From assembly GCF_003324165.1 (NCBI RefSeq), contig NW_025407852.1, positions 27,650-91,649 on the forward strand: a stretch of DNA of 64,000 bases. The letters are read 5' to 3'. The translations under genes were made by a program, and so were the position numbers. Below the pieces are notes generated by a model, which did not search any database, was not told the origin of the DNA, and worked only from the letters and a program-made list of their open reading frames with translations. This DNA is from Naegleria lovaniensis (Eukaryota; Heterolobosea; Eutetramitea; Acrasida; Naegleriidae). The stretch's first letter is position 1, and each line of letters starts with the position of its first letter. Positions 5,701-43,682 of this stretch are shown piece after piece.

Positions 5701-5960
5701 CACGTGTTTTGACAAGTAGCTCAGTAAGAAATTCTTCGGACCTGTCAGAGACTTTGACAGTTGTCAATGCTTTGGGTGCCATTTCATCGAATAGGGAAGA
5801 ATTTTTACCAACGACAGTGATGAGTAGTATTTCATCGTTTTTGAGCAATGTTTCAAGTGAAATTGTGGTCATAAGCCAAGGAATGACAAGTGACAGCTCA
5901 AATGGACAATTATCGACTGTGGAATCTACAGCAAAGAATATTCTCACTGAGGATTTTTAA
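2709..5960 (+). pseudogene. 5' part of an NHL-repeat adhesion-GPCR-like receptor, interrupted by a transposon
   Basis: A hydrophobic segment (LHLFLLLLLLILLF, about residue 65) acts as signal anchor or signal peptide. A long array of NHL-type propeller repeats follows; each shows a xISDSGNHxIRKI-like strand followed by GTIxxVAGN. An EGF-like turn (CQEGWTGSDC, near 5230) and a Ser-rich region follow. The reading frame breaks three times, near 3417, 3711 and 4985; each break is repaired by one added base and the NHL repeat then continues exactly. The frame ends in TAA at 5958-5960, where the Harbinger element begins. The 3' half resumes at 12381 with the GPS, 7TM and RGS domains. Removing the element and one TTAA copy and adding four single bases gives 5637 nt (1878 residues). 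Family knowledge: such receptors sense extracellular ligands and couple to G proteins. Either start at 2709 or 2862 is possible. Confidence 0.8.
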
Positions 5961-6029
5961 TCTCAGACCCACACACCCAGCAAAAATGAACCTGGGATTG
6001 GGTGAGTTGGGTGTGAGGACGGCGTTTAA
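5957..6029. repeat. Harbinger left terminus with TTAA target site copy
   Basis: TTAA 5957-5960 is followed by the terminal inverted repeat from 5961. Further in is GGGTGAGTTG (about 6000-6009), also present in inverted orientation at the right end, and then the module GGTGTGAGGACGGCGTTTAA (6010-6029), which is cut at its 3' end by the nested element. Adding the three bases TCT after the nested element's second AA copy restores the GTTTAATCTCA seen at the right end. Confidence 0.75.
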
Positions 6030-6345
6030 CCTAGGAGCAGAGAATCGCGTCTGTATTTTACATAGTTATCGTCGGTAGTAAATGAAGCTTATTGAATGCA
6101 TATTGTGCATAAGTAGTGTCTCCTTATTGCGGTCTGTTATTTCGAAGGTGATTCAAGCTTGTTTCCGCAGGTACAGCCGACGGTAAAACTCGAGATAAAA
6201 AATACTGTCGGGAGTTACTGATGAAAAGAATCCACCAAGACACAAAATACAGCCGGAAGAAGCATCATGTTAAATATTCTAATAATGGAGGTTTAATGAA
6301 CGAAATAACGACGGAAATACTGTTGAAATAACCTACCACAACACC
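6030..6345. repeat. Left subterminal repeat arm of the nested element
   Basis: Degenerate copies of an AAATACTGTCGG / AATACAGCCGG / GACGGAAATACTG motif occur from about 6050 to 6325, in orientation opposite to the right arm. There is no coding sequence here. 6346-6479 is AT-rich without features. Confidence 0.6.
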
Positions 6346-6479
6346 TGTGGCTGTTACTATCGATGATAATGATGGAAATCTTCTTATTTTATTTTAATTC
6401 AATTTGAAATTTTTTTGGTTCAATATTTGATTTAAAATTGTTATTGCAAATGCATTTTAAATTTTATTGGCATCATAAT

Positions 6480-7182
6480 TTACAACTCAACAACGTTGGC
6501 AGGGTTGACAGGTCTTGAGCGTCTCATTTTCGCTGATGATGATTTACGTAAATGCTCTTGATACAATTTATATTCCTCAGAATTGATGTCATATACATCT
6601 TCGTCGTTTTCAAAGTCAAAAAGGTTGTCTGAATTTTTGCTTTTTGAGACTCCAGATCTTCTACGAAGTTTCGCCTTCTTTTTTGCGTTCACAAATATTT
6701 GACTTATATGTTTCCTGCATATCTTTATCAACTAAAAACGATTGTTGTGAAATTTAGTCAAACAAATAACAAACACAACTTACTATTTCATCTACCTGGG
6801 ATTTATCACAATCTGAAAGAATACTATAGTTTGGAAGACTTGAACAAAATGTTTGAACATAAGTAACCACTGTGTCTGAAAGTTGAAGCTTTTGCTCTTG
6901 TGTTTGGGGATTAGAACAGATCTGAAGAGTTAAAATTTATAGGAACAACATTACAACTTACTTGGGAGAGAAATGAATGAAATTTCAATTTACAACATTG
7001 TTTGATGCTTCATGGAAAGAAATGATTACCAAGAAATATTGACAAGAAACAAACCTTGCGTTGTTCTGAGTTAAGAATTGCTTGCTTTCTTGAAAAAGTG
7101 TTATATTTAATGATGGAGCTATATAAGAAATGTTTTTTCGATTACGTTTCTTCTTGATACCCCTTACAGTGTCAGTTGGCAT
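6480..7182 (-). CDS. Small spliced gene of the nested transposon, four exons, basic protein of 187 aa
   Basis: The ATG is at 7182-7180. Exons are 7182-7055, 7007-6962, 6921-6784 and 6731-6480. Introns are 47, 40 and 52 nt with GTTTGT or GTAAGT donors and AG acceptors. All phases agree and give one frame of 188 codons including the stop. The N-terminus is very basic (IKKKRNRKN). The middle is helical with several Cys (IKQCCKLKF). A second basic stretch (NAKKKAKLRRRSG) is followed by an acidic tail. It shares a 136-bp divergent promoter region (7183-7318) with the Tnp2-like gene, so it is probably an element-encoded accessory DNA-binding protein, comparable in position to TnpA of CACTA elements. 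That role is inference; no known domain was recognised. Confidence 0.65.
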
Positions 7183-7318
7183 TATGATTGGTTTTTTTTT
7201 GTTTTGATTTTTGAAAATATTTAAACGGGTCAACTTTGAAACTATTGGAGAGAAGTTTTTGTAAGCGAGTTCAGATCGAGCGCGCACAGGAAGCGTTTTC
7301 TTTACAAAAAAAAATATC
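7183..7318. promoter_or_regulatory. Divergent promoter region of the nested element
   Basis: These 136 bp separate the start codons of the accessory gene (minus) and the Tnp2-like gene (plus). They hold a run of T/A and an A-tract just before the plus-strand ATG. No specific factor site is recognisable. Confidence 0.45.
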
Positions 7319-9061
7319 ATGCTTCAGAACAAGGCCGAATCCAAATTCTTTGACGTGGTTTCCTTGAGAATGTGCCACAAGTGCAATGTACATGATTTGG
7401 AATTGTATATCCATAATTCGGCAAAGTGTAAAACCTTGAATCCCTCTATCAAATGCACTTGTTTTTCATGCGGCACAACTTACTTCACTTGTCCTTTTTG
7501 CAAAGATTGCTTCTCCGACTCTCATGCATCCAATTTTTTAAAACACATGAAAAGATGTTCAAACAAAGATGAAGCTCAGAACCCCGTTTTCAAGTGTTGT
7601 TCCGAACAAACGACAGAGTTTGATCATTATTATTCTCATATCATCAAAAATCATTGTGGTCATTTGTGTTCGTTTTTAAAAAAACTCAAACATGAGGATA
7701 AAATGGATGACGAAAAAAACAACAAGAAAACGACAGGAGTGGTTGTTATGGAGGAAGGTTGTGATATTGGTGGTTTATTGATGAACTTAGAAGCTCTCAC
7801 TGCTGACGTGCAGAATTTAGTACAAACACCATTTCCAATATTTGAATTTTTTGAGAAACTGAAACAATCTATGCCATATGTATCAAATCACTCGTGCGAG
7901 CATGAACAAGAATTTCACTTCCCTAAAGATCACCCTTTTGAAAGTTTTGAAGAATTATGTTGTTTTATGTTAATCAATCACTTTGGAATTTCTAAACAAG
8001 CATATAATTTCATGATTCAAATGCTGAAATCAACATTTAAAGACCGTCCTGAGTTGATGAAATTATTTGTGAGCTATGATACCTTGAAAGCAAGAGGAAA
8101 TAATTTGAATCCCCAAAAACCCATGCAGTTCAATGATAATTTCATCCTTTACTCTGTACAAGATACTATTCGAAACATGTTAATGGATCCGTATTTGGTC
8201 AACCAATTATGTCTCAACCGAGAAAAGCATCAACAACAGTTTGCAACCAAGCAACCATTTCAATCTAAAATATTCAACAAAATTTTGGAGAAGTGTCAAA
8301 GTGATATATTCCCTCTTGTGATGCTGATATATGTGGACGATTTTGTAAAATTCAGAACAAAGTCAACATCAACATGTGGAGTGTACTCAAGTTTGTTGAA
8401 TTTCAATAGCGACTTCATGAGAAAACTTGAATCTATAAGCTTACTTGGGTTCTCAAAAACTCACTGCGATTTTTGGACAATGACAAGCCATTTGATGAAA
8501 GAAATTAATCACCTTGATGGGGAGATAATTGAAATAGAAGATCCCTCTACAGGTGAGTCTAGAAAATTTCAGATTGTTGTTGCAGGGTTTTTATGGGACA
8601 CAGTCGAGAAGATGTATTCCTTGCAACTCATGAAAGAAGAATGTAGCCGTTGTGAAGGAATTTATGATAATCAACATAAAACACCAGATTGTTTATTTGG
8701 AGCGTCTACGATAGAAGATCCAAAGTATGTCACGCATTTCGAGAAAAGAAATATATTTGAAGCAAACACTGTTATTAATAGCATCGATTTAAGATCAAAT
8801 GACAGAACAAAGGACAAGGGTTTTAAACCCTTAATATGGGAAGAAATGCAATTCAAAGATTTGAAATTATCTAAAGCGAAAATAACGCAAAAATTACGAG
8901 AATTACCTGTTCTGCATATCAAATGCATTCCACAACTAATGCTATCAGCAATAGATATCAGCAAAGTCAAGTCTAAATGTAGCTGTATTTGCTATTCATT
9001 GCCATCTGGGTTAAAGTGGCAATTGAATCAATTTGCATTTTGTTATAATTTTTGTAAATAA
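7319..9061 (+). CDS. Tnp2/CACTA-like transposase-related protein with N-terminal zinc-finger region
   Basis: The ATG at 7319 follows an A-tract; 580 residues. Residues about 18-125 hold many Cys/His pairs (CHKC, CFSC, CPFC, CC..H, HCGHLC), a probable zinc-finger block. The centre (about residues 340-460) reads like the catalytic core of Tnp2-type transposases: LIYVDDF, then GVYSSLLNFNSDFMRKLESI, and a terminal CSRC pair that marks the zinc-binding knuckle in these families. The C-terminus holds further Cys (CSCIC) and looks shorter than in full Tnp2 proteins, so the copy may be truncated or divergent. Role by family: binds the ends and excises the element. The assignment rests on motif pattern only. 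Confidence 0.6.
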   Translation: MLQNKAESKFFDVVSLRMCHKCNVHDLELYIHNSAKCKTLNPSIKCTCFSCGTTYFTCPFCKDCFSDSHASNFLKHMKRCSNKDEAQNPVFKCCSEQTTEFDHYYSHIIKNHCGHLCSFLKKLKHEDKMDDEKNNKKTTGVVVMEEGCDIGGLLMNLEALTADVQNLVQTPFPIFEFFEKLKQSMPYVSNHSCEHEQEFHFPKDHPFESFEELCCFMLINHFGISKQAYNFMIQMLKSTFKDRPELMKLFVSYDTLKARGNNLNPQKPMQFNDNFILYSVQDTIRNMLMDPYLVNQLCLNREKHQQQFATKQPFQSKIFNKILEKCQSDIFPLVMLIYVDDFVKFRTKSTSTCGVYSSLLNFNSDFMRKLESISLLGFSKTHCDFWTMTSHLMKEINHLDGEIIEIEDPSTGESRKFQIVVAGFLWDTVEKMYSLQLMKEECSRCEGIYDNQHKTPDCLFGASTIEDPKYVTHFEKRNIFEANTVINSIDLRSNDRTKDKGFKPLIWEEMQFKDLKLSKAKITQKLRELPVLHIKCIPQLMLSAIDISKVKSKCSCICYSLPSGLKWQLNQFAFCYNFCK

Positions 9062-9116
9062 ATATTAATTTTCTAAATATTTCAAAAATCAACAAGTCTT
9101 ATTCAACAAAGTATCG

Positions 9117-9550
9117 ATGAAAATAATTCGTGGTACTTTCATCCGAACCAATCCGAAGGTATTGTCCGTCGTTGTTATCATAATTAATTTCAATCATTAT
9201 TTTGTCAATATTATTCTCCGTCCATATCTTGCCAGTGGTATTTCATCCGACAGTATTGGTCGAGCAGTAAAATATGTCATATATTCGTCGGTCAGTATTT
9301 TCCTCATTTACTTTTCCGACGGTATTTTGATGACCAGTATTATGCACATGTAATTGCCCTGTTGTATTATGTCGTCCTTGATGCCATGGTTAATATCCAT
9401 CAGTATTTTAACCAGGGATATTCTCCATCCGTATTCGTCCAGCAGTATTTTAATCGAAGGTATTTTTCGATGGTAGATAAACGTCTTATTTTTGACCGCA
9501 CTTATTCTCTGATTACTCATGCGGTATACCTGCTTCCTTCTGCTCCTAGG
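9117..9550. repeat. Right subterminal repeat arm of the nested element
   Basis: At least ten degenerate copies of CCGACAGTATT / CGACGGTATTTT / CAGCAGTATTTT lie between about 9160 and 9535, separated by 20-40 bp. They are the inverted counterpart of the 6050-6325 array. The arm ends with the terminal repeat CTGCTCCTAGG. There is no credible coding sequence in the arm. Confidence 0.65.
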
Positions 9551-9631
9551 AATCTCAAACACAACACAAATCCAAATCAATCTTCAAAAAAAAATATTTC
9601 TGCAACAAATATGATGATCATCAGCGTTTTA

Positions 9632-10888
9632 TTATTGAAATTTGAACAAAGTGTTTGGCATGGTTTTAACCAACGGATTGCTTTTCAAAATAGCGTTCGA
9701 ACATAGAACAGCTACCATTGCAACATATGGAAGCAAAGATTTTCTTTGTCTCCATCTTGTTGCCGTTGCTGATAATCGTTTTACATATCCGAAGGTCATT
9801 TCTACAATCATTCTCTCAGATTTGTGTTGCACAAAGAGATCAGGCTTACTTCTGATGATGGTTGATGTTGGAAGTACCAATTCAACTCCATGTTTGAATG
9901 TTTTTGCTTGATATCCACCATCAGCAAGGACCATCACACCCTGTAAGTATTTTTGGATATTACTGAAGAATAATACATCTTTGTCGTTCTTGCTTCCAGG
10001 AAAACCAACCGTAAAATGTAAAAATCTGCCTTGAAGATCAACTAACGCTTGTCCGATGAAAGAATGGATACATTTGTCACCACGATAATAGATAGCCTGA
10101 TCTACACTTGGCTTGGAGATTCTGAAATGCGTTGCATCAAGCGCGCCTATTACTAGTCTATCAATGTTAGAGCTTCCTTGTAATACAGTCAAATGTCCTG
10201 GCATAACAACCTCGTTCATATAGGCCGATAATAATATGGGAATAATATGTTTGATTTCCATGCAAACATATCCTTTGGAAACTCCAAACATTTCTGACAG
10301 CAGAGCAAATTTGGAATATGATCCCATCCAAACACAGATTAGCAGTAATCTGTTTTTTGGAGTAAGTTTTGAGTATCTGTATTCACGTTTAGTATTGATA
10401 TTTCTTCTCAAGTCATAATATCTTCTTGGCTTTAACAGTTCTAATTTGATCCTAGAATACATTTCTTCAAACTCAGCACGAGTTAAATGAGTGAAATCCA
10501 TCAACTTATCGTCATCCCATTTTCCATAATTGTCAACTCCTTCCACCTTACTTTTTGGTTTTCGGTATTGACTTCGTCCTTGCCCACAAAATGGAGTTTT
10601 AGTTCTAAATTTTTTGGAAGTATAATATGGCTCTTCTGGTGGCAAAGGCATTACTGGAGGGATTAATGAGCAAGCAAGTAATTGAAGTCTTTTCAAATAC
10701 TTTTCATCCCATGAGCATGCTTTATACATCAACAATTCTTGTTGTAGGTTATTTAATTTTGATATGAAACTATTGACATTGATATGACTATTTACACCTG
10801 GGTAATCAATCAACTCAGGATGAGTAATGATGACAGTTGCTGCCATCATTAAATAAGTGATGACGACATGTAATGTATTAGGCAGCAT
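9632..10888 (-). CDS. Harbinger transposase (DDE_Tnp_4 type)
   Basis: The start is ATG 10888-10886; 418 residues, normal for the family. The N-terminal ~120 residues are variable. A helix-turn-helix-like region (LTPKNRLLLICVWMGSYSK...SEMFGVSKGYVCMEI) precedes the nuclease domain, as in other Harbinger transposases. Catalytic residues can be placed: D251 in ALDATHF, D323 in VLADGGYQ and E363 in MIVEMTFGYVKR, with the typical VGFPGSKNDKDV in between. It would cut at the element ends together with the Myb/SANT partner. The frame is intact. It is divergent from the Myb gene across 167 bp. Confidence 0.93.
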   Translation of the reverse strand: MLPNTLHVVITYLMMAATVIITHPELIDYPGVNSHINVNSFISKLNNLQQELLMYKACSWDEKYLKRLQLLACSLIPPVMPLPPEEPYYTSKKFRTKTPFCGQGRSQYRKPKSKVEGVDNYGKWDDDKLMDFTHLTRAEFEEMYSRIKLELLKPRRYYDLRRNINTKREYRYSKLTPKNRLLLICVWMGSYSKFALLSEMFGVSKGYVCMEIKHIIPILLSAYMNEVVMPGHLTVLQGSSNIDRLVIGALDATHFRISKPSVDQAIYYRGDKCIHSFIGQALVDLQGRFLHFTVGFPGSKNDKDVLFFSNIQKYLQGVMVLADGGYQAKTFKHGVELVLPTSTIIRSKPDLFVQHKSERMIVEMTFGYVKRLSATATRWRQRKSLLPYVAMVAVLCSNAILKSNPLVKTMPNTLFKFQ

Positions 10889-11055
10889 TTTTTTTCAGTT
10901 TGCATTGTAATATTACAATATTACATATTTTCTCAAACTATTGTAAATTTACAACAATTAACCGTTACAACCGTTACAACCGTTACATAATTCACCAACC
11001 CTATTTAACGTAGTTGACTAGTATTGTTTTGAAGAATCATCCATTAAAAAAAACA
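10889..11055. promoter_or_regulatory. Divergent promoter region of the Harbinger genes
   Basis: This AT-rich spacer lies between the transposase and Myb/SANT start codons. It contains ATATTAC repeats (about 10907-10926) and a tandem triplet of Myb-like sites described separately. Confidence 0.55.
10960..10986. promoter_or_regulatory. Three tandem AACCGTTAC boxes (candidate Myb sites)
   Basis: The 9-bp unit AACCGTTAC is repeated three times head to tail without gaps. AACCGTTA / AACNG is a classical Myb recognition core, and the neighbouring gene encodes a Myb/SANT-type domain. Autoregulation or transposase recruitment through these boxes is inferred. Confidence 0.55.
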
Positions 11056-12267
11056 ATGGCCAATACTCAACCCAAGAAGAAGCAAAAACCAACCAACACT
11101 CAACCTAACTCAAGTCAAGCATCAAGTAGCAATCAATCACAGGACCAATCCAGCACGGGAAAACGATGGACAGACTCTGAAGTCCTTGCTGCATTACAAC
11201 TTTACAAACAAGACAAGGATTGGGAAAAGGTTGCGAGAAAAATTAAGGAATTATTTGACAACAAAGAATGGAATTGGCATGTGCGTGGTGACAAGAGTTG
11301 TGCTGAAAAGTATCGCAGATTGAAGGAGGAATTGAAAAAGGAAATTATTGAATATAGATCAAAACTCTCAGAGAAATTTAATAATCACACTCTGAAAATT
11401 AATCAAGATGTCGAATTATGTATTGACGAGGTAGTTATTGGTAAAGGTACCATCTTGAGTGCAAATCCATCTAATAACGAAGATTTATTCCATTGCCACG
11501 GTAAAACATATCCATACAACCAATTTGCTAAAATTACAATCAAGTCCCACGATGCAAGTAAGAAAAATTTACTCTTACCATCATCAGTCGTGACATCTGA
11601 ATTTAAGACAGTTGGTGATTTGCAACAAGGTTCCATCATTGCTTTTCCTTTAACAAATTTATTGATTTTGAGAACTTTTGATTTATTTGAACCAAGTAAT
11701 CCCATTTTGAAAGAAGTGTGGGATATTGAACGTGATAATCAACAATTTTTATTGACCACCGGAGAACTTAATTCTAATCCAGAAGACAATGTAATTGATC
11801 TTGTTGAACGTGATATTCAAGACACCGATCGTAGAAGAAATGCTATCCAAGAAAGAACAGATATTCAGCGCATGCATACCATTCAACATATGACATTCTA
11901 TAGAAACAGTGAGAAGTGGGCCGAAGTATTGGATAAATTAACGGAGACATTCGAACTGGCCAACACTCTTATGAAGTCACATCAGGGCAAAGATAAGGTT
12001 GTTGTGTTGTCTTATAATGGAAAAAGAAAGAAGGTAGTTGTTTCTGACATCAAAGTATTGATTTACTTGTCTGGTGATTTTCTTTCATTCCTTCAGGAAA
12101 GAGTAACTTTAGGGGTGTGTACTTTTACTGATTTATTGAACAGAATAGTTCTTACAACCTCCGAAGGATTTATTGTCAATGACACGTATTCATTTGAAGC
12201 TCTTTCTTCAACAGAAACCACTGAACTCTCCATCAGTGTCATTGATAGAATGCACGATGATGAATAA
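11056..12267 (+). CDS. Myb/SANT-like DNA-binding protein of the Harbinger element
   Basis: The ATG at 11056 sits in an A-rich context; 403 residues. After a Gln/Ser/Asn-rich leader, residues about 36-100 form a Myb/SANT-like trihelix domain (KRWTDSEVLAALQLYKQ...WEKVARKI...GDKSCAEKYRRLKEEL), with Trp residues at helix positions. The remaining ~300 residues are mixed alpha/beta without a recognised domain. In Harbinger systems the second protein binds subterminal DNA and carries the transposase to the nucleus and to the ends; this gene is the natural candidate. The frame is intact. Confidence 0.82.
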   Translation: MANTQPKKKQKPTNTQPNSSQASSSNQSQDQSSTGKRWTDSEVLAALQLYKQDKDWEKVARKIKELFDNKEWNWHVRGDKSCAEKYRRLKEELKKEIIEYRSKLSEKFNNHTLKINQDVELCIDEVVIGKGTILSANPSNNEDLFHCHGKTYPYNQFAKITIKSHDASKKNLLLPSSVVTSEFKTVGDLQQGSIIAFPLTNLLILRTFDLFEPSNPILKEVWDIERDNQQFLLTTGELNSNPEDNVIDLVERDIQDTDRRRNAIQERTDIQRMHTIQHMTFYRNSEKWAEVLDKLTETFELANTLMKSHQGKDKVVVLSYNGKRKKVVVSDIKVLIYLSGDFLSFLQERVTLGVCTFTDLLNRIVLTTSEGFIVNDTYSFEALSSTETTELSISVIDRMHDDE

Positions 12268-12380
12268 TAAATTTATTGATATTTCTTTATTCAAAAATTT
12301 TTTGAGTGTGAAATGGGTGGGTGGGTGTGAGGTACGGCGTTTAATCTCAACTCACCCAACCTGTGTGGGTGTGAGATTAA
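12268..12380. repeat. Harbinger right terminus with TTAA target site copy
   Basis: The Myb gene stops at 12267. The remaining terminus contains GGGTGGGTGGGTGTGAGG, then TACGGCGTTTAATCTCAACT, the inner CTCACCCAACC and the terminal repeat GTGTGGGTGTGAGA ending at 12376, followed by TTAA 12377-12380. The GTGTGAGG(T)ACGGCGTTTAA module is a direct repeat of the one at the left end, although the outer termini are inverted. Confidence 0.75.
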
Positions 12381-14761
12381 AAATCCCCACTGCATTCTCC
12401 AATTGCTTTTCATTTCAAAATTTCACACCCTCGCCATTGGAAACCAATTCTGTTTTAGAAAATCTCATGATTGTTGGCTCCACCACATCGACACGTTTTG
12501 AACATTTATTACAATTGACAAGCACTGCTTTCCAAATACATGTGAAACGAAACTTATTGAACGATCCATCTCAAAACCATGAAACATCTTCAGAACCATT
12601 ACAAATTCCAAATCAAGGTGGACGTATTTCAACTCCTTTCGAATTAAGAAATTTGAATTCGAATAACGTTTCCGCAGCGGTTATGAGTTTTGGAAATTTG
12701 GAAAAGGTGAAAAATTTATATTCTTGGAATCGAGATGTAACGACACAATTGATCAATTCCACTCAATTCGAGAATTTGCAACAAGTTGTGGATGCGCTCT
12801 CTAATTCAAGTACCGTTCAACGTGTGAATTTGGTGATACCTTTCGAACTTAAATATTTGCAAAATAGGGCCATTCTTCCGGTTCGTGAATTGACAAATCC
12901 TGTAACCATGGAAATTAGAATTCCAAAACAAGCTCATGAGTTAATGACCCAAATTATAGAGTCTTCTTCAAATTATAGAATAGTCTGCATGTATTGGAAT
13001 GAAACCAAGTTGAGTTGGGAAAGTAATGGCTGTTTGACTGAATTGCTCAACACCAGTACTGTCACATGTCAATGCAATCACACCACCACTTTTACAGCCT
13101 TCGTTGAGGTTAACAATCTTCTCAATCAAGTCGACCTAGCCATCACTATTGCCCAAATCATTGTATCTTCTCTATTAATTATCGTAATTTCAGCATTCCT
13201 CCTCCTTTTCATCCTGACAAGTCAAAAGAATCCAATGAAAAGCCGATGGATTCTTCCATTCTTTGCATTGGCTTCTCTGATTGTAGAATTGATATTTTCC
13301 TTTATTGTACCTAATGCTATTTCTCTATCAGGATCAGATCGATCTGTCCTTTCCGCTGGTAACATTGTCAAGCAAGTATCTGCCATGATTTCCGTTACCT
13401 TTTTTGCTCTCGCTTTACTCAATTACGTTGTCTTGGTTGTTAGATATTTACTTTTCAGATACATGTATGAAATTATGGAACTATTTGCAAAACTTGTCCA
13501 TGACAAGGAGGTCATTATGAATCGAAATGTATCGTCATCGAACATGAATTTTGATCCATCTCAAGATTTTGAAAATAATCAACCAAAATGGTTTTGGCTG
13601 TTGAAACGAATGGCCAGTAAGGGAGTTCAAATTATGGTGAATATTGTCTTGGCCATTATAATTATTGGATACTTTGTAATTTTCATTAGTTTGGTTGGAA
13701 CGAGCTCGATTGCAAGTACGAGCTATACAAAAGTTATGGCCGGATCTCTGTTGGGATATGTCCTTGTCATTTCATTGATTGTGATCATAGTGTTTGTTTT
13801 GGACGCTGTTTTTGAAAGTCGTTTCACACAAATGACAGATGAAACCAAACTCACTCTTTCAAAGAAGAATTCTGAGATGGATTTTAAAACACAAGAATCA
13901 CAGAAGCAACTCATTGAGTCCTTCCTCAATGGAATTAAGAATTATTTTACAACAAATGACGCATTATCGTTTCGAGCGGAATTTATTTACTACATGACAG
14001 GAGTTGCTTGTTTTGTTATTTCTTATTCATTGGGTTTATGGTTTATTGATCAACCTACGAGAAATGGTCGAGCGGAGCAGGGAGTGCAGTTGGCATTCGA
14101 CGTCTTGTCAGTATTATTTTTCATTGCTGCCTTTGGAGGACACGTGTCGATAGTGACCGCTGTCAATTATATGAAATCCAAGAGAATGAAAGGTTATAGA
14201 AACGTTGAAACGAGTGTTGATTCAGAAGACGACATGAGTGAAGAATTGAGAGAAATATTAACACAACCCTCTCTGTGCAAAATTTTCGAACAGTATGCAA
14301 AATTGGAATTCTCATTAGAAAATATTATTTTCTGGAAGAAACTGGATCGAATGAAACAGTTGCTGAATCAAAGCATTAACAACCAACATGATTCTACAAA
14401 TTCGAAAACAATTTCATCATGGGAATTACTCGAAAAGGAATTTTCACAATGGAAAGTCGATCACATGGATGCCAACGCTTCAATGGAAATTAACTTTCCT
14501 TCCCATATCAAACACAAATTTAATGCCATCCATACTCAATTACAAAAACAAGAACCCTCCGCTCTTCCCTCACAACAACTCATTCAAGAATTATTCCAAG
14601 ACATGCATTCCGATCTCATCTTGAATTTGAGTGATACCTTTTCAAGATTCATGTTCACTGAGAGTTATGAGAAAATAATGACCTTTATGCAACTCAAGAA
14701 GGAAATGAATGCATCTTTTGATGACACACAACAAAACAACAGCAGCAAGAGCATTTTGTAA
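12381..14761 (+). pseudogene. 3' part of the NHL receptor: GAIN/GPS, seven-helix and RGS domains
   Basis: This continues the gene broken at 5960. It begins LKIPTAFSN, which joins TEDF of the left half if one T is added. The frame is unbroken. A GAIN-like region ends in a GPS motif near 12985-13095 (CMYWNETKLSWESNGC, then CQCNHTTTFTAF), the site where adhesion GPCRs self-cleave. Seven hydrophobic helices follow between about 13125 and 14180. The tail contains an RGS domain (ILTQPSLCKIFEQYAKLEFS...NIIFWKKLDRM). The combination of GPCR and RGS on one chain is known from plants and protists. The frame is also open leftward into the transposon, to ATG 12257/12260, so an N-terminally truncated receptor could still be made. 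Classed as a pseudogene because of the insertion. Confidence 0.8.
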
Positions 14762-15151: not shown

Positions 15152-17762
15152 ATGAGCAAGAGATATTACCAAAGTAGTGGCAGTAGTGGTCATGGAAGGG
15201 GAGGATACTCTCAAGATCATCATCATCACTACAGACGAGAAGAAGGCTCTTATGGCAGCGAGCGATTTGGTTCGGGAACTGAAAGCCTTCAAATTAAACG
15301 GTACAAGGACACTCATCGTCCGCAAGCAAGTTCTTCATCAGGCTCCGTATTGAGAACCAACTTTTATCCCATCAGAATGCTACCCAATCGTCAATTTTAC
15401 ATTTACAGTGTTTCCATTGCAATTCAAGCAACCAGAGACTCGTTACCTTCAGACATCTATAGTTGGGCAGATTCCATGTTGAAAAACGTGTATTTTAAGA
15501 ACAAGCTGTTTTACATCTTGAGACGACAAGGCTTACTGAATTTGGACAGTCCAAGTCAACAAGAAAACATTAAGGGTTTACCATTCTTTGATGGATCCAT
15601 TTTGGTGTCAATCTTTGAGTTGGAACAATTTAAAGAAGTGCAAATACCTGGAAGCTTGACACCTCGTTCGCAGCAGCCAACACCTGTTAAGGTATTTGAC
15701 ATTACGTACAGGAGAATGGAGCATATTATTCCGTTTCGAATTACGATCACCAAACTCACGAGCGTTGGACTTAATCAAAAGATTCAAGACGTTAAATTAG
15801 ATCAAGCCGTTTCATTTTGTTTAGAAACTCTGTTCGTCAATCACTTGGACATGGTCTTGTTAGGAAAGGGTAAGTTTTTACGATGGGTATTAGATACATC
15901 TCTTTACTGACGTGCCAATCCACCATCACCATCTGAATGTGTCTTGTGTTCGTTTTGAACTCTTTATAATCTCAGCCATGTGTGAAAAGACAGGTAGAAT
16001 TGAAAACAATTTCAACATTAGGAAAGGAGTTATCCCATCACTCATATTTATCACCTCTGGCCTTCATTTAAACTTAACATTCAAACAAAAGATTACAGCA
16101 TCCTCACCCATTATCCACAACATTGAACATTATGAAAATACTGGAACATCAAAGGAAAGAATCAGTAACACGTTCCGTGGCTGCAGTGTGGTGTACAATA
16201 ACAAATCTTATGTTATTAAGGAGATTGATTTTTCACAAAATCCATTGAGTACCTTTAAAAAGGATGGACACGATATCACATTCAGAGATTACTATAAGGA
16301 CAGATATGGTGTCGAGATTAAAAACTTGAAGCAACCGCTCATTTCGACCACTATCAAGATGAGAAACCAAAAAAAGCAAAAGATTTATCTAATTCCAGAG
16401 TTATGTTATCTCTCTGGAGTGACCAAGCAAGAATTGAGAAAAATACCAAAAGTAACTGTGCAACAAAAAGAAATATTTGTAAGGGACATTGTTCAGAAAG
16501 CCAACTCAAACAAAGCTAAAGAATATTGTGACTCTGTTGGACTGGCCATTGATCAAAATCCAATTCAATTGAATTTAGAGACGTTGAACGAATGTAGAAT
16601 TGTCTCCCCCGAAGTTGTACAAAAAAGAGACAAATGGACCATCTCCACCAAGAATTTGAACGACTATTTTTATCAAATGCATGACACTTGGCTCGTTATA
16701 GGCGAGTCTCGAGATGTTGACGAATTACTTCGTGTCAGCGAAAGGCATCAATTACCTAGGCCAATTGAAATATTAATTCGGTCAAGCTCTGGTCACAAAG
16801 ACGAATACATGAACGAGTTGGAAAAAATTGCAGACTGGACGAGAATCAAATTCGTTTTTGTTTTGTTAAAGGATCCAAACAAAATTCGCTATGCAAATAT
16901 CAAAAGATATTTAAGCACAGAAATAGGAGTTCCTTCGCAGTGCATTGTTTGCAATTCGCACGATTGGACCAAACGATTACCAAATAGCTTATTTCAGATT
17001 GCTGCAAAGGCTGGATGTATCATCTGGACAGTGGAGAAGAACGAGGACGAAGTATTCCTATCTATTTGCGGTGTTGAACTCCAACGACGAGGAAGGATGG
17101 CTAAAGGAGCAATAACAATAAGTCTCAATTCCACATATACTCTCTATCATACAGTTACGTTCAAAAATGTTGACATTGATGTTGCCAAGCTCGAAATCAT
17201 CAAAGGCATCGAGGAAGGTCTGGAACGTTTCATAGCAAGAAATCTAGACCTTCCTCCGGCCCTGATTATTTATTATTCAGGACAAGACTTTTTAGACATT
17301 TCAGAATCCATTAATGATTTAGCAGAACGTTTGCAATCCAAACAGCGTGAACAGTATCAGACCGACCAGTTTGAAAACATGTTTAGTGTGTGCCTTATTA
17401 GCGTCAATAAGGACACTAACGCAAGATTTAACACTGGTAACTATGACAATACACCAGTGGGTACATGCGTCAAGACACTCTCCAGAATGTTCACACAAGA
17501 GTTTTATTTGACCTCTTGTTTTATTTCCAGCAATATTGGATATAGCAGACCCGTACGATATCAAATTTTGAGCAACACTACAAAATTTGACGTGGATCAA
17601 TTGACAAATATCACGTTCAAGCAAACACATCTTTATTTCAATTGGAATGGAACAGTTCGATTACCTGCGGCTTGTCTTTATGCAAAGAAGGCCACAGAGG
17701 CAGTGGACACAACCAACGAGAAAGCACATCCTAACCTACAAAACTCACTTCACTTTCTATAA
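15152..17762 (+). CDS. PIWI-clade Argonaute, slicer residues degenerate
   Basis: Exons are 15152-15869 and 15976-17762; the 106-nt intron has GTAAGT and TCTCAG and the phases match. 834 residues. The N-terminus has an RG-rich stretch (GHGRGGYSQ). The PAZ domain (about 290-400) carries the PIWI-type signature SQNPLSTFKK then NLKQPLI, followed by YLIPELCYLSGV. The MID domain keeps the guide-5'-phosphate pocket features (IRYANIKRYL, PSQCIV, AAKAG). In the PIWI domain the first Asp is replaced by Cys604 (LSICGVE), the second by Ser674 (IIYYSGQ) and the catalytic His by Lys810 (YAKKA); only Glu646 remains. It should bind small RNA but not cut. The ZNFX1-type helicase gene follows 187 bp downstream on the same strand. 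Confidence 0.92.
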
Positions 17763-17949
17763 TGTGTTGGCCAATGAGTTATTCCAGTTCATTTACACTC
17801 TTGTCTCACATAAGCTTGTAAAGGGCAAACTCCATTCTTGTGCGATTTTGCTCATATAACTGCGCCGGTCAGACTTGAGAATTCCCAACCTGTAAGAGGT
17901 TGCACCAGCCATCGGCAAGATGCAAAGATGAAAAGCAGAGACACAAAAA

Positions 17950-20900
17950 ATGTTAAATCAGTCGTCTCACAGCACGCAACAAGCGAGCAGCTCCTCTGCA
18001 AACCAACCAAGCAGACCCAGAGTCTACGCTGCAACATCAACAGCACAGGAAAATGCACCAACAAGACAAAATCGTGCACCAGCACTACTTGCTTCATCTA
18101 GTACTTCATCACAAGCTGACGCATTATTGATAACAGGAAAATCTGCTTCAGTCTCAGAGCATGAGAATAAGAGATTTTCACAAGTAATTTTGATGTGCAG
18201 CAAATGTCGCTCAAATTTGGCTGTAAATTCAACTCAACGTGGCATGTTCAAGGTATTCAAAGAAGGTCAAAGTAAACATCTTGTTCTCTTTGATCAAAGT
18301 GTTATCGGAAAGACAATCATTGAGAAGGAAATGACCAATAGCCAACAGAAAGACAAAACATTCGAAAAGACACATTTATTGTTTTGTAGTTCTTGTCAAG
18401 AAAAGATTGGATGTAGACTGTCAGGATGTTTTCCGAATACCGATCTTCCAAAAAGAATGTTTGATGGAGAAAGCTGTCAAGTAACATGTACAGAGAAGGA
18501 TACCCAAGAGCAAGTTGTAATGAATGTGAAAGAGTGGCGAAAATTGAGATATTCATTGAAAGATTTTAGTTTGTATCCTCCACCACAAGCCAATTTTTCT
18601 TCAACAAGATATGATCCAACTAAAGCTGTAAAGGAATCGACAAGTGGAAGGAAAGCAGATGAAAGGGGAATGAATGAAAGTTACCAATTTGTAAGAATGA
18701 ATGACAACAACGTTCAACAATCAAAAAGCTTCCAACCATCACAGAATACTCGAACAAGAGCCCAACATCTTCAACCAAAAGAAGTTAATAGAACAAATCC
18801 AATGAAAAGCTATGACGTTGTTGATATTTTTGACGAACCTGCAGGTAGAAGTGATCCATCAACATTATCTAGCTCAAGCTTTACTCGCAAATCATTTCAA
18901 GTACAGTATCCAACACCTCAAATAGAAAAACTACCTACAAAGGAAAAAAAGGTTTACACTATCCAAACGGTTAGAGACCTGCATCGGTATATTGATTGTT
19001 CTCTCTTAAAAGAAGGAAACGAACAGTATTTCATCAAGAACCTCTTTCAAGACCTGTTCAAATCCATTTTTGGTACAGAGGGAGTATTACAACAATATTC
19101 TATCGACTTTAAGCTCATTGAAAAACTTCTCATGGTATTTTCACACAGAGAAATTGAAGTAACAACAAACAAGACCCAAGTTACTACCATGTTCTCACTC
19201 CTCATGAACTCCTCTTTCTGGAGAAGAGATGTTAAAAAGTACATTATGAACGATGTTGTTGATGATGAGCAAATAGAAACAATAATTACAATATTTCAGA
19301 GATGTTTGGATTTTTGCCCATTGGAAGCCGAGAGGGTTTACATTGAAGAATTGGAAAAGATTTATATTGAAAAGTTTTTAAGTCAAACTTTTAAGGAATC
19401 TATTGAGAATTTAAAGTCAAAGAAGAAACACGTTTTGAAATCCAATAATTCCATCGCGGATGAACCCGAAGAAGATGATCTAGAAGGAATAGACATCGAT
19501 ATTGGTATTTTCCCAACTTGGAATGAATTGACATCGAACAACAAATTTACAATCAAGAACATTGTTGATAGAAGTTATCCTTCGCTGAAGCACTATCTTT
19601 ATACTCAAATCATGTTATTGAGAGAAGATTTTATACATCCTCTTAAAGAAGGCATTAGATCCTTCCTTTCTAACGAGCTCAATCATAGAATAATCTCGGT
19701 GTTCACAGATGTACAATTTCGGTCAGTTATTTCCTTAGACAATGAACGTGAATTGGTGCACTCTCTTTCTTTCAATTATCCATGGAAGAAAGTAAATTGG
19801 GAATGTAGCAAAAAACTTGCCTTTGGTTCTCTGCTTTGCTTATTCCCTCAAGAAGGTTTCGGTAAGAACGCAACACTTGTGAAGAGCGAACCAATTTTCG
19901 TCACTGTTGTTGGAAGACAACATTTGCGAACTGGACAGATTTATGTTACTGTATGCAGAGAGGAAGACTATGCGAGGCTTTCTTTTACAGGAATGTATAT
20001 CATGTTCGAATCTCCTGTATACTTTGCAAGTGTTAGACCTGTCATTGATGCTTTAAAGATGATTCGCTCAGAAAACTTGTTAAGTCACTCAAAGTTTTCC
20101 TTCTACGACGAATTTATCAAAGTGAAAACTCAAAAACCTCCACAATATGTGGAAAAAGTCAGTGTTATGAGCTTGGATGTCATTTCAGGAAAATCAAGAA
20201 AAAGTGTCCAAAGTAACGTATCGGTTGGTCAAAATATTGATATCATGAGTGACTGGATTGATGACAATGACACCTTCCTTGATTCAAGTCAAAATAGTGC
20301 AATTAAGCATGTCATGAGAAATAGAGTTGCCATTGTAATTGGTCCACCGGGTACAGGAAAGACATTTACAGGTATAGAGGTTGCAAAGTTGATGAAAAGT
20401 CATCCATATATGAAAGAGAGACAATTGGTTTGTATTACCTACACAAATCATGCGTTGGATCAGTTTTTGGAAGGTCTCCTTGATTATTTCCCGGATTTAG
20501 TTCGTGTTGGCTCGAGAAGTAAAAGTCAAAATGAGAAATTATTGGCTAGAAATATTTCCAACTTGAGATATTTGCCGAAATACTTATTGTTACAAAAGAA
20601 GCACTGTGAGGCTGAACTGAATATATTAACAAAAGAAATAGGTTCGATCGAACAATCAATTAAGAATCCAGATGAAAGTCTTTACCATATCATTTGCAAA
20701 TCAATGGTTTTTAAGAAGGCACTTATAAAGTTTCCAACCCACCTGTATACTAAACGTAACCCAGCACCACACAGTTTTCTGGACATGTTTAATTGTTGGT
20801 TGAATGGAGATGATTTGAGAAGAATGGAATATCTCAGAAGGAACAACTTTATTAATCATCTTGGGAACTCATTTAGTGCCCTAAGAGATCAGAACAATGA

Positions 20901-23721
20901 AGTCGAGTTAGAGATTTTTGAAGAAGTCAAACTTGAGGAAACTAAAGCTGTTGAATTTATAGAAGAAATTGAAATACCTGAAGAGAGAATTGAACAAGAA
21001 ATAGAAGTGGAATTGATTGAAGAAGAAATGAACAATAGATTTGGTTATGACGAAGCCGATTTCACCAATGCAACATCAATATTTAACTATTATTGGGAGT
21101 TTGGCTATGATACTACTTTGGATCCAGAAATTGCAAGGATTGAAGATGAAGTCAAACAATTTGGTGATATTTACCGAATTCCTCTTGAAAAACGCAAATC
21201 TATGATGAAGCGATTGACAAGCCTTAATGAAGAAGTACTCAGGAAGAGGCTTGTCGATTTTATTAAGAAAAGGAGTTATTGGGAGGCGAGAAAGAGAGAA
21301 ATACTGATAGAAAGGGATTATTTAGTTTTGAGTGATGCTTCGATTATTGGATTAACTTCAACAGCAGCCTCAATGAACAGAAATTTACTGAATCGGTTAA
21401 GAGCACCAATTTACCTTATTGAAGAAGCAGCCGAATTGTTGGAATGTCAAATAACTTCAGTATTACATCCTAATGTTCAGCATTTAGTAATGATTGGTGA
21501 CGAGAAACAACTTCAACCGAAAGTCAACTCTTACTATTTGGAAAAGAATTGTGATTTCACTGTGAGCTTATTCGAAAGATTAATTAGAAATGGGCTGAAA
21601 TATGTTTCTCTCAATATTCAACAAAGAATGAGACCTGAAATTAGAGGACTCATAGATATGTTCTATGAAAAACTCACAGACCATGAGTGTGTCACCAAAT
21701 TCGAACATGTGACAGGTGTGAGCACAAATATTTGTTTCATTGAACACAAGAAACCAGAAAAGACCTCCGAAGATATTCAATCCTTGACAAATCCACATGA
21801 AGCTGAGTTTTTAAGCAAGTTTTGTAAATATTTGCTCAATGTCAGACAATACAAGGCAAATAACATTACAATATTGACACCGTATAGAGGGCAAGTGATC
21901 CTTATAAAGAAAACTCTTAAGGAATTGATAGATCAACAACAATACAACAATATTAGAGTTTCAACAGTGGATGATTATCAAGGAGAGGAAAATGAGATTA
22001 TTTTGCTTTCGCTTGTGAGATCTAATAACTATGACAATCTTGGCTTTGTTAAAATTACAAACAGAATAATTGTCTCGTTGAGTAGAGCAAGAAAGGGTCT
22101 TTACATTATTGGAAATTATGATTTATTGAGAAATAATGAGGATTGGAGAAAGATCTTTTCAAGACTAAAGCTTTCAAATAGAATTTTGGATCATTTACCT
22201 CTGTCCTGTCCTAAACACACAGAAGAGAAAGAATGTATCAGGGAGCCTCATGATTTCGATCAAGTTATTTGGGGAGGTTGTAAGAAACCATGCACCTATC
22301 GATATGACTGTGGTCACATCTGTTCACTACCATGTCATCATGATTCGTTACATCAGGAAAGAAAATGTGAGAAAATTTGTGATGAAAAACATGCAGAATG
22401 TGGACACAGATGTAAGGCCATGTGCCACTCTGGAAAATCTTGTCCCAAATGTACAACTCTAGTTAATTACAAGTTTGTAGATTGTGGTCATACTACCCAA
22501 ATTAAGTGCTACTTGAAAGATACAGCTCAACTGTGCAAGGAAAGGTGTCAAAAGCCTCTTAAATGTGGACACATCTGTAACGGAGAATGTGGTTCATGTA
22601 AATTGACTGGTTGTGGTCCATGTCAGACAACGATCAAAGATACTTGTGAAACATGTAAGAGATCCTATTCTAGAAAATGTTCAGATCCTAGAATATGTAC
22701 CAATCCGTGCACATTCAAACTTACTTGTGGACATAATTGTTCTGGAAAGTGTGGTGATTGTACTGTTTCAAGTCCATGTACTCACAAAACATGTGGATTT
22801 AATTGTGAAAGAACACTCATCTGTGGTCACATTTGTAAGGTTAAACATACTTGCAGTACACCATGTTCAAAATGTGAAGAAACGTAAGTATTCGAACTGT
22901 GTTGTTGGGAATTATGTCATTCACCTTCCAATAGTTGTGTTTTCAAATGTTTTCACAAGGTGAAGTGTGAATTATCTTGTCATGAAATGTGTTATCCATG
23001 TAAAGAAGCATGCCCTATTCGATGCTCTCACAGACAATGCTCCAATTTGTGTTCTGAACCATGCGATATTGAACCTTGTAATGAAAGATGTCCAAATAAG
23101 TGTTTACAATGCGGCACTCCGTGTATGGGTTTGTGTGGTGAGCCATGTCCACCGTGCATGCATTGTGCTGCTTTGAACGGAGAAGTATGGCAATGTCCAA
23201 TCTCATTCATGAATTTTGAAGATTTAACCACAGATGAAAGAGTTTACTACTTGCCTGAGTGTGGACATATTTTTGAATTAGAGTCAATGGACAACTGTGT
23301 GAGAACGTTCTTTGAAACAGAACAGGGTATCTCCATCAAGTATTTGAGCTGTCCATGCTGCAGAACTCCAATTTTCACAGCTCCAAGATATCAAAAATCC
23401 ATTAAGGAATGTGTGAAAAGAATGGAACATTTAAAATATATCATTTACAAGAAGGAGGAGGAGGAAAAACAAGCAAGAAAAGATGCTATTAGAATTGTAT
23501 CTGCTGAGGCTGGATATGCATCTGGACATTGGTTTTGTTGTGAGAATGGACATCCTTATTTTATTGGGGAATGTGGTGGAGCCATGCAACAGAGTGTTTG
23601 TGTGGATTGTGGAGCACCGGTTGGAGGTTCTAGTCATCGCTTATTAAGCTCCAATCGTTTGGCCACAGACATTGATGGAGCCACTGCTCCTGCATGGCCT
23701 ACAGCTCTCAATCAAGATTAA
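17950..23721 (+). CDS. ZNFX1: ZNFX1-type SF1 RNA helicase with NFX1 fingers and RZ finger
   Basis: Exons are 17950-22883 and 22935-23721; the 51-nt intron (GTAAGT...CCAATAG) contains an in-frame TAA and splits an NFX1 finger. 1906 residues, close to animal ZNFX1. A low-complexity leader and a helical Armadillo-like region (about 340-640) precede an SF1/UPF1-like helicase: Walker A GPPGTGKT (798), YTNHALDQF, motif II IEEAAE (about 1158), IGDEKQLQP, QQRMRPEI, VDDYQGEENEI and SLSRARKGLY. Then come Cys/His-rich NFX1-type fingers (about 1430-1740), a RING-like CPCC region and a C-terminal RZ-type finger (GHWFCCENGH, GECGGAMQ, CVDCG), the hallmark shared by ZNFX1 and RNF213. Family knowledge: ZNFX1 works with Argonautes in small-RNA inheritance in nematodes and in RNA sensing in mammals. 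Confidence 0.93.
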
Positions 23722-27726: not shown

Positions 27727-28538
27727 GATGATGAATTTTTTTTGTTTTCTTCCTCAAACAACAGGAACATTGAATTTGTGTGTAAATCGGCCAAGGCGTC
27801 CCGCGCGAACACTTCTAACAGCAAACATGGTGACGATCAATTACAACTTGCTGTTTAATGGGATTCTACTAATGTTTGTTAATGGTTCATCACTACTACC
27901 ATGTCATCACTACTAGGGTTCAGAATAATTCCATATCCACTACTCCATTCATCTAGAAATTGACTTGTCGAATCTCAACTTTTTCTACGAAGATCAAAGA
28001 TAAAATGCACAGTTATTTTTCATGTTTTTGTTCATTCTGACGGTTGAATTTGAATACAAGTTGGCGCAGCGAACACGTTGATTTAACAATGCGAACGGAA
28101 GTTGCTGGTATTCACGCATTAATTACTATTCACATCGTCCAACTCTCGTTGCTGTTCTGAATGGTAAGACATTCTCTCAACAGTCGAAACTGCTTTGCTA
28201 ATCGAATGTCTATTCTTTATCGTGAACTTTCAGAAATATACTAGTTTCATGATTCACTTACGATGCTTGATATTATAATGCATTCTTTCTGAAGAATAGA
28301 ATGTCTGTTGATGAACCATCACGTTCTGCGTGTTTTTATTTTTCTTTCAAGGACTGTTCGAGAGATCATTAAAGAGATGTAGAGGTTGAGAAAGTTAGCT
28401 GTTGAACTGTGAGAAGAGTGGAAGTGGAACTGATTCGGTCACTGTAAATTCACTTCTCACAATTTTTGAACGAAAACTGTGTCTTTGCAAGTTGAGAAGT
28501 TCGACAGTCATAAGTCATCTTGATAATTGAAGCAAAAA
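27727..28538. other. Intergenic, 812 bp, divergent promoter region
   Basis: This is the longest gene-free stretch outside the transposons. It lies between the divergent MSH6 and DUF4116 genes. It contains a repeated GAATGTCT (about 28204 and 28304) and short complementary CTATTCTT / AAGAATAG tracts, too weak to call a structure. No tRNA, small RNA or extra gene is recognised. Confidence 0.45.
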
Positions 28539-40427: not shown

Positions 40428-40617
40428 GAAATTCAAATCATGCGCTTGATTACCATTCGATTACAAACTCAATAGCTAAATGTATGTTATTTATTGTTGA
40501 TCATCACCTCAAGGAAAGTTCATTTCGGCCAAAATTGGAAATCGGCACAGATCAATGAAACACTCGTTCAATCCATCAGTCACGCAAGACTCAATATGAT
40601 TATCTTTTCAAAAAAAC

Positions 40618-43600: not shown

Positions 43601-43682
43601 AGTACTTGTGTGTGGAATCATCATTTCAATTTCAATTGCCATTGTTGCTGTAGCCATGCGATCACGAAAGAGCCATGTTTGA
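40618..43682 (+). CDS. Secreted beta-helix / EGF-repeat membrane protein with GPS-like motif (one frame break)
   Basis: ATG 40618 starts a clear signal peptide (LSLLLVLSWLFLFQLLLHVNVVAA). Residues about 28-470 form a right-handed beta-helix (FYMSPNGRDRNNGLSTTRPFQSFSKAF at the start, typical of DUF1565/pectate-lyase-like folds). About eight EGF-like repeats of the form CSxHGxCVxxxxCxCxxGYxGxxC follow (510-780), then a GAIN-like stretch with a GPS-like end (MKCLTSHLTSFAV), one membrane helix (AATVSILGSVLVCGIIISISIAIVAV) and a short basic tail. The frame breaks near 43165: ACC ATT TCT TAA; adding one T gives TTISLIIAISQNISQP and joins the second frame to the stop at 43682 (1021 residues). It is probably a cell-surface adhesion or recognition protein; unlike adhesion GPCRs it has a single membrane pass. 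Confidence 0.82.

Follow-up and report, generated by a model that had tools for sequence, protein, structure and literature searches.

In Caenorhabditis elegans, the Argonautes WAGO-4 and WAGO-1, which are not known to carry the catalytic residues, act in one silencing pathway with the ZNFX1-family helicase ZNFX-1, and this is among the described systems closest to the locus considered here, in which the gene for a PIWI-type Argonaute is followed by a ZNFX1-type gene in the free-living amoeba Naegleria lovaniensis. Nematode ZNFX-1 has been reported to associate with WAGO-1, WAGO-4, EGO-1 and the PIWI protein PRG-1; the WAGOs form a nematode-specific Argonaute clade apart from PIWI, an association of the proteins is known there whereas here we have the genes alone, and no linkage of the nematode genes is described in the available portions of the two papers (PMC9276528, PMC9200344). 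Hrr1 of Schizosaccharomyces pombe, termed the fission yeast orthologue of ZNFX-1, is described as working with an RNA-directed RNA polymerase (RdRP) (PMC9276528). Mammalian ZNFX1 is presented as an RNA-activated E3 ubiquitin ligase in interferon signalling that does not rest on Argonautes; it is described as clustering and ubiquitin-marking RNA, and two groups cited in that paper disagree as to whether the RNA itself is modified (PMC13270118). In bacteria, a pPIWI-RE gene is kept in an operon with a DinG helicase gene, which likewise places a PIWI-superfamily gene, known in active and inactive versions, next to a helicase gene; the bacterial system differs in having a superfamily 2 (SF2) helicase and in being likely polycistronic with a nuclease gene (PMC3702460). 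As for the genus itself, a Dicer-like gene, DCR3, has been named in N. gruberi (PMC4791657), and the same species is among those in a Dicer figure of another paper (PMC10328071); these reports of Dicer-like genes indicate that small-RNA machinery is present in Naegleria. No mention of Argonaute or RNA interference was found in the available main text of an N. fowleri genome paper (PMC8296547).

In this study, we analyzed a stretch of 64,000 nt from N. lovaniensis (contig NW_025407852.1; hereafter the window, to whose positions all coordinates refer), and found that it encodes a PIWI protein which keeps the residues that grip a guide RNA but is very likely unable to cut, directly followed by a gene with the complete ZNFX1 layout. 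The features of the two genes are as follows (residue numbers are those of the predicted proteins):

15152..15869, plus strand: PIWI gene exon 1, Gly/Ser/His-rich N-terminal tail and N domain (open reading frame with splice donor GTAAGT)
15870..15975, plus strand: predicted PIWI intron, 106 bp, GTAAGT...CAG, joining two open reading frames in frame
15976..17762, plus strand: PIWI gene exon 2, PAZ (residues 302-391), MID, PIWI (residues 533-818) and the C-terminal Leu834 (Pfam, bit scores, residue maps)
17763..17949, unstranded: spacer between the PIWI and ZNFX1-type genes, 187 bp
17950..22883, plus strand: ZNFX1-type gene exon 1, ZNFX1 domain (residues 582-688), superfamily 1 (SF1) helicase (residues 777-1390) and NFX1-type zinc fingers
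22884..22934, plus strand: predicted intron of the ZNFX1-type gene, 51 bp, GTAAGT...TAG, containing an in-frame stop
22935..23721, plus strand: ZNFX1-type gene exon 2, last Cys-rich repeats, RING-like stretch (residues 1732-1790) and RZ finger (residues 1840-1886)

The open reading frames (ORFs) and splice junctions confirmed the head-to-tail order, the coordinates and the gap that had been given in the original prediction, which was made from the DNA letters alone. Two predicted exons each give a PIWI product of 834 residues, with the frame intact across both exons, and a ZNFX1-type product of 1906 residues; both introns open with GTAAGT and keep the reading frame at their junctions, and that of the ZNFX1-type gene removes an in-frame stop at 22885-22887. 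We also considered a single fused PIWI-ZNFX1 gene, which was ruled out because the PIWI frame ends in the leucine of a metal-binding pocket (see below), followed by a stop codon and 187 bp. Two neighbouring genes with separate transcripts are the most likely arrangement.

By bit scores, the 834-residue protein belongs to the PIWI clade of Argonautes and resembles PIWIs more than AGOs. Against solved structures, full-length PIWI chains scored 102.7-130.5 bits, with PIWIL1 (130.5 bits) and Drosophila Piwi (123.9 bits) as the best matches, whereas AGO chains scored 26.8-31.9 bits; the scores against PAZ-only PIWI chains were 44.2-67.7 bits, and that against the Asgard HrAgo1 was 71.3 bits. The Piwi domain (E=6.6e-31, 108.1 bits) and the PAZ domain (E=2.7e-20, 73 bits) lay far above their Pfam cut-offs (28.9 and 28.8 bits, respectively), the ArgoN match in exon 1 (E=0.001, 19.9 bits) stayed under its cut-off of 30.9 bits, and no Pfam MID model scored on the MID region. 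By eye, the Gly/Ser/His-rich N-terminal tail (15152-15360) contains one GRGG motif, a candidate site of arginine methylation that Tudor-type readers could recognise.

Residues of Drosophila Piwi reported to contact the guide (PMC7015924) were mapped onto the window PIWI through the HMMER alignment, and all nine of the side chains tested were identical. Tyr551, Lys555, Gln567, Gln589 and Lys593 of Drosophila Piwi correspond to Tyr545, Lys549, Gln561, Gln580 and Lys584, and Tyr801 and Asn803 to Tyr793 and Asn795; in PAZ, the counterparts of tyrosines 327 and 328 are Tyr345 and Tyr346. At Val568, where the main chain makes the contact with the guide, the window protein has Cys562. The rule given in the same paper for a metal-type 5'-phosphate pocket also holds, through Gln580 (Drosophila Piwi 589) and the C-terminal Leu834; in Drosophila Piwi, the last residue is Leu843, whose carboxylate is described as helping to hold the metal (PMC7015924). 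As a background, 40 of the 102 columns identical among three animal PIWIs were kept in the window PIWI and 62 were changed or gapped, the former count being slightly low since a gap in the MAFFT alignment shifts Gln580 and Lys584 out of register. Against this background, the guide-contacting positions are kept above average, as judged from the alignments, with the proviso that they were chosen as functional sites and not randomly. PAZ and the guide pocket are retained, in line with the original prediction.

By both HMMER and MAFFT, all four residues of the DEDH catalytic tetrad are missing, and the best alignment reads the tetrad positions as Glu607, Val642, Ser674 and Lys810. Of the four printed HMMER structure alignments three were mapped, the fourth (7yfq) nearly duplicating that of Ephydatia. 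At the first position, the three animal PIWIs in the MAFFT alignment carry the catalytic Asp within a G-[IF]-D motif, where the window PIWI has GVE; its SICGVEL aligns with MIVGIDC of PIWIL1, which sets Glu607 at the first Asp, and the same residue was found there by MAFFT with all three animal sequences and by HMMER against PIWIL1 and Ephydatia Piwi. At the glutamate-finger position, MAFFT and HMMER against Drosophila and Ephydatia Piwi gave Val642, and HMMER against PIWIL1 gave Asp641. Ser674 replaces the second Asp and Lys810 the His in the alignments checked, HMMER and MAFFT agreeing with what had been predicted for these two positions. The claim that Cys604 stands at the first Asp did not survive, as no mapped alignment places it there (Glu607, or Gly605 in one); aligning the protein to animal PIWIs therefore shifted the first position, and it uncovered no intact DEDH.

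In comparison with Drosophila Piwi, the window protein shares the PIWI clade, the guide-contacting side chains, the Val at the glutamate finger (Val653 in Drosophila) and the Lys in place of His of the DVDK tetrad. It differs in that Drosophila Piwi keeps both aspartates, which here are Glu607 or Gly605, and Ser674, and in the first-base loop discussed below. Drosophila Piwi, with DVDK, is experimentally non-slicing, and Siwi with the H874K change was reported to have almost no slicer activity although loaded with PIWI-interacting RNA (piRNA) (PMC7015924). Because all four catalytic residues are gone and these two proteins do not, or hardly, slice, the window PIWI is very likely unable to cut RNA. 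With so many of the animal-identical columns changed or gapped, the loss of both aspartates is statistically unremarkable, and its weight lies in the chemistry. The idea of a PIWI that binds a guide without cutting is supported at the level of sequence, by the nine guide-contacting side chains and the missing tetrad.

Two other accounts of the altered tetrad were weighed. First, the protein might still cut through an unusual active site, in which Glu607 would work with other carboxylates: Glu607 could in principle bind a metal, and Asp641 adjoins the finger position. However, the second metal-binding Asp is lost to Ser674, and the His has given way to Lys810, a substitution that by itself (H874K) left Siwi nearly without slicing (PMC7015924), so we consider this account extremely unlikely. 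Second, the gene might be a decaying duplicate that has lost its catalytic site and is turning into a pseudogene, as the loss of all four positions and the 62 changed or gapped columns (at least two of them, 580 and 584, being MAFFT misplacements) would allow. Its 834-codon frame is nevertheless intact over two exons, and decay is not expected to spare all the guide-contacting side chains and the terminal leucine, which makes decay very unlikely as well.

The second gene is, by its layout, a complete ZNFX1 orthologue, for which helicase and E3 ligase activities are predicted at most. Pfam matched AAA_12 (9.6e-41), AAA_11 (5.8e-21), the ZNFX1 domain (E=7e-11, 42.5 bits, cut-off 27) and the RZ finger (E=8.2e-21, 73.8 bits), each above its cut-off. 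Among solved structures, the ZNFX1 chain 9q9z matched residues 458-1520 at 460.9 bits, followed by Aquarius at 130.8 bits. The SF1 motifs were intact (GPPGTGKT at 798, EEAA at 1158, GDEKQLQP at 1183, QQRMRP at 1224, VDDYQGEE at 1340 and VSLSRA at 1375), and we take them to be Walker A, the DExx-type motif II and motifs III-VI. Downstream, five CGHxC repeats start at 1454, 1484, 1539, 1593 and 1625; a fuller NFX1-like pattern fits one of them, and no Pfam model of the NFX1-type zinc finger scored on the protein. The RING-like stretch at 1732-1790 (CPIS...CGH...CPCC) was recognised by eye, and Pfam RING models gave no match. The RZ finger of RNF213 matched at 47 bits, with Cys1847, His1851, Cys1858, Cys1867 and Cys1870 aligned with Cys/His residues of RNF213. 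The full ZNFX1 architecture that had been proposed was therefore recovered, its RING-like part by eye. The chain 9q9z, which we take to be human ZNFX1 and to possess an RZ finger, resembles the window protein in its ZNFX1 domain, SF1 helicase, NFX1-type fingers and RZ finger; residues 1-457 of the window protein are unaligned with it, and the interferon context has no counterpart here. Fission yeast Hrr1, the other ZNFX-1 orthologue considered, is not known to have the zinc-finger and RZ tail and works with an AGO-clade Argonaute; it is set beside the window protein by description.

Taken as a whole, the locus is best explained by separately transcribed neighbours encoding a non-cutting, guided PIWI platform and a ZNFX1 orthologue, a reading based on sequence in which we place moderate confidence. 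Several points weigh against it. First, the splice junctions of both genes are predicted only. Second, HMMER against Drosophila Piwi, in an ungapped alignment, places Gly605 and not Glu607 at the first Asp, so the residue at this position is uncertain. Third, only one of four positions is identical in the loop that in Drosophila Piwi (544-547) recognises the first base of the guide, and the guides of the window PIWI may differ from piRNAs. Fourth, an AlphaFold2 model of PIWI exon 2 alone, made from the single sequence, was uninformative (mean predicted local distance difference test score, pLDDT, 34.2) and was left unused. Fifth, the scans of viral and prokaryote contigs yielded no relative by which the conservation of the pair, or selection on the lost tetrad, could be gauged: for the PIWI protein, 6 pattern matches in viral contigs and 32 in genome contigs, for the PIWI-domain alignment, 44 and 23, respectively, and for the helicase and finger part of the ZNFX1-type protein, 3 in viral contigs, none of which was confirmed. 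As the collections scanned consist of viruses and prokaryotes, this silence is uninformative for heteroloboseans. The remaining points concern the pairing itself. The head-to-tail order leaves no divergent promoter in common, and six of the nine other gaps between long ORFs (12149-43170) measure 106-180 bp, which makes 187 bp ordinary. This count is based on 11 ORFs chosen out of the 28 of at least 250 residues; they lie between 12149 and 43170 and define 10 gaps, including that between the PIWI and ZNFX1-type genes; except for these two genes the bounds are stop-to-stop ORFs, so that the true gaps are slightly longer. Three gaps exceed 187 bp, namely 3824 bp (holding exons of a MutS-type gene), 915 bp (holding another ORF) and 390 bp.

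The short gap was therefore rejected as evidence of a functional link. The window is eukaryotic and gene-dense (GT-AG introns; MutS-type, eIF3c, Ras-type and acyl-CoA oxidase genes), and since short gaps are the rule in it, adjacency is weak evidence for a common pathway. One account of the locus is that the two genes are coincidental neighbours in a compact genome and serve separate processes, with ZNFX1 perhaps an Argonaute-independent, RNA-sensing ubiquitin ligase. Apart from the ordinary spacing, it is favored by the other neighbours, which are unrelated (a MutS-type gene 180 bp downstream of the ZNFX1-type gene and a receptor-like gene upstream of PIWI), by the mammalian protein being an RNA-activated E3 ligase (PMC13270118) with the RZ finger present here too, and by the occurrence of a single GW/WG pair in the ZNFX1-type protein, which hence has no Argonaute-hook-like repeat. 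On the other hand, a chance meeting of two families of small-RNA silencing is a priori not likely, although the odds depend on copy numbers, and nematode ZNFX-1 associates with several Argonautes. We give coincidence about an even chance. It is an alternative, with respect to the pairing, to the dedicated module considered next, and each is compatible with the biochemical reading of both proteins.

It had originally been suggested that physical linkage points to a two-component silencing or surveillance module. We could not uphold this, given the ordinary spacing, the absence of a common divergent promoter and the absence of a silencing gene among the scanned ORFs: none of the 28 window ORFs of at least 250 residues, and none of the 20 scanned out of 58 ORFs of 100-249 residues, matched an RdRP, Dicer or chromatin modifier in Pfam. 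In its strongest form, a dedicated PIWI-ZNFX1 module would be held by selection, the dead PIWI recruiting ZNFX1 and ZNFX1 in turn recruiting an RdRP. The domain content of both proteins speaks for it, as do the association of nematode ZNFX-1 with WAGO-1, WAGO-4, EGO-1 and PRG-1, the work of Hrr1 with RdRP (PMC9276528) and the precedent of the bacterial pPIWI-RE/DinG operon (PMC3702460). The viral and prokaryote scans, however, provided no relative to back conservation, no RdRP or Dicer was seen among the window ORFs scanned, and the gene order speaks against joint control by a divergent promoter; such a module appears somewhat unlikely. No description of a PIWI-ZNFX1 gene pair was found in the openly licensed literature, among the titles and abstract starts listed. 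The adjacency is intriguing, yet by itself it does not demonstrate a functional link. The nematode associations of ZNFX-1 with WAGOs and with the PIWI protein PRG-1 do make a common silencing pathway plausible, and that the two window proteins act in one pathway is a tentative proposal which we rate a little below even.

The mechanism that we propose starts from what is read in the sequence (gene structures, domains, guide pocket, lost tetrad and helicase motifs) and adds guide loading, the lack of cutting in vivo and a common pathway as inferred steps. Keeping the residues that hold both ends of a guide RNA but not those for cutting, the window PIWI, once loaded with a small RNA, would bind complementary transcripts and stay on them. 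It would most likely serve as an RNA-guided binding platform, with silencing itself left to partners. Bound transcripts could then pass to the ZNFX1 protein, to be retained or amplified in the way put forward for ZNFX-1 and the Argonautes of nematodes, and this protein would hold or move along the transcripts and favor the synthesis of new small RNAs, as in nematodes. Alternatively, it might act as mammalian ZNFX1 is described to do, clustering and ubiquitin-marking RNA (PMC13270118). An RZ-type finger is the kind used by ubiquitin ligases, and it could serve the holding, clustering or marking of RNA.

Upstream of the pair, the following features were identified:

5950..12387, unstranded: DNA transposon, 6.4 kb, with 25-bp terminal inverted repeats and CACTG on both sides
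9632-10894, minus strand: transposase within the transposon (DDE_Tnp_4, 1.4e-12)

The 25-bp inverted ends occur nowhere else in the window (chance expectation 0.00). Two more ORFs of the transposon, at 11014-12267 and 7265-9061, had no significant Pfam match, and the former looks Myb/SANT-like by eye. PIF/Harbinger elements possess a Myb/SANT-like ORF; five bases would be an unusual length of target duplication for these elements. NHL repeats lie to the left of the element, a GPS motif and then hydrophobic stretches to its right, and by eye the frames on the two sides are in the same phase; judging from these flanks, they are probably one receptor-like gene with the transposon inside. The locus directly upstream had been described as transposon-rich: a transposon is indeed present upstream, but it is a single element whose right end lies 2.8 kb before the PIWI start, so the description was overstated. 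As one element inside another gene, it was discarded as evidence bearing on the pair.

Elsewhere in the window, an ORF at 28527-30206 contains eleven DUF4116 repeats (E=1.2e-151), and some of its 75-bp units are alike at the DNA level, which suggests that the array expanded recently; DUF4116 repeats of this sort fit Naegleria or a relative. At 40600-43682, Teneurin-type EGF repeats precede a GPS-bearing ORF, and this may be a second gene of the adhesion-receptor type. ORFs on the minus strand at 58146-60419 match ARMC9 (ARM repeats 6.2e-36, CTLH 1.2e-28), a ciliary and basal-body protein. Rfam and tRNA scans of the window gave no match.

Non-slicing PIWIs and the link between Argonautes and ZNFX1 have so far been worked out in animals. 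A protist PIWI in which the whole catalytic tetrad is replaced and the guide-contacting residues are kept would show that a pure guided-binding platform arose outside animals too. The further-reaching idea, that an early-branching eukaryote has a module in which a slicing-free PIWI is coupled genetically and physically to ZNFX1, so that guided binding together with retention, amplification or ubiquitin marking replaces cutting, appears unlikely at present; if true, the Argonaute-ZNFX1 partnership would be ancient and not a nematode invention. Were the pair conserved, the joint work of ZNFX1 and Argonautes would reach far back in eukaryotes, and a free-living laboratory amoeba would make a simple test system.

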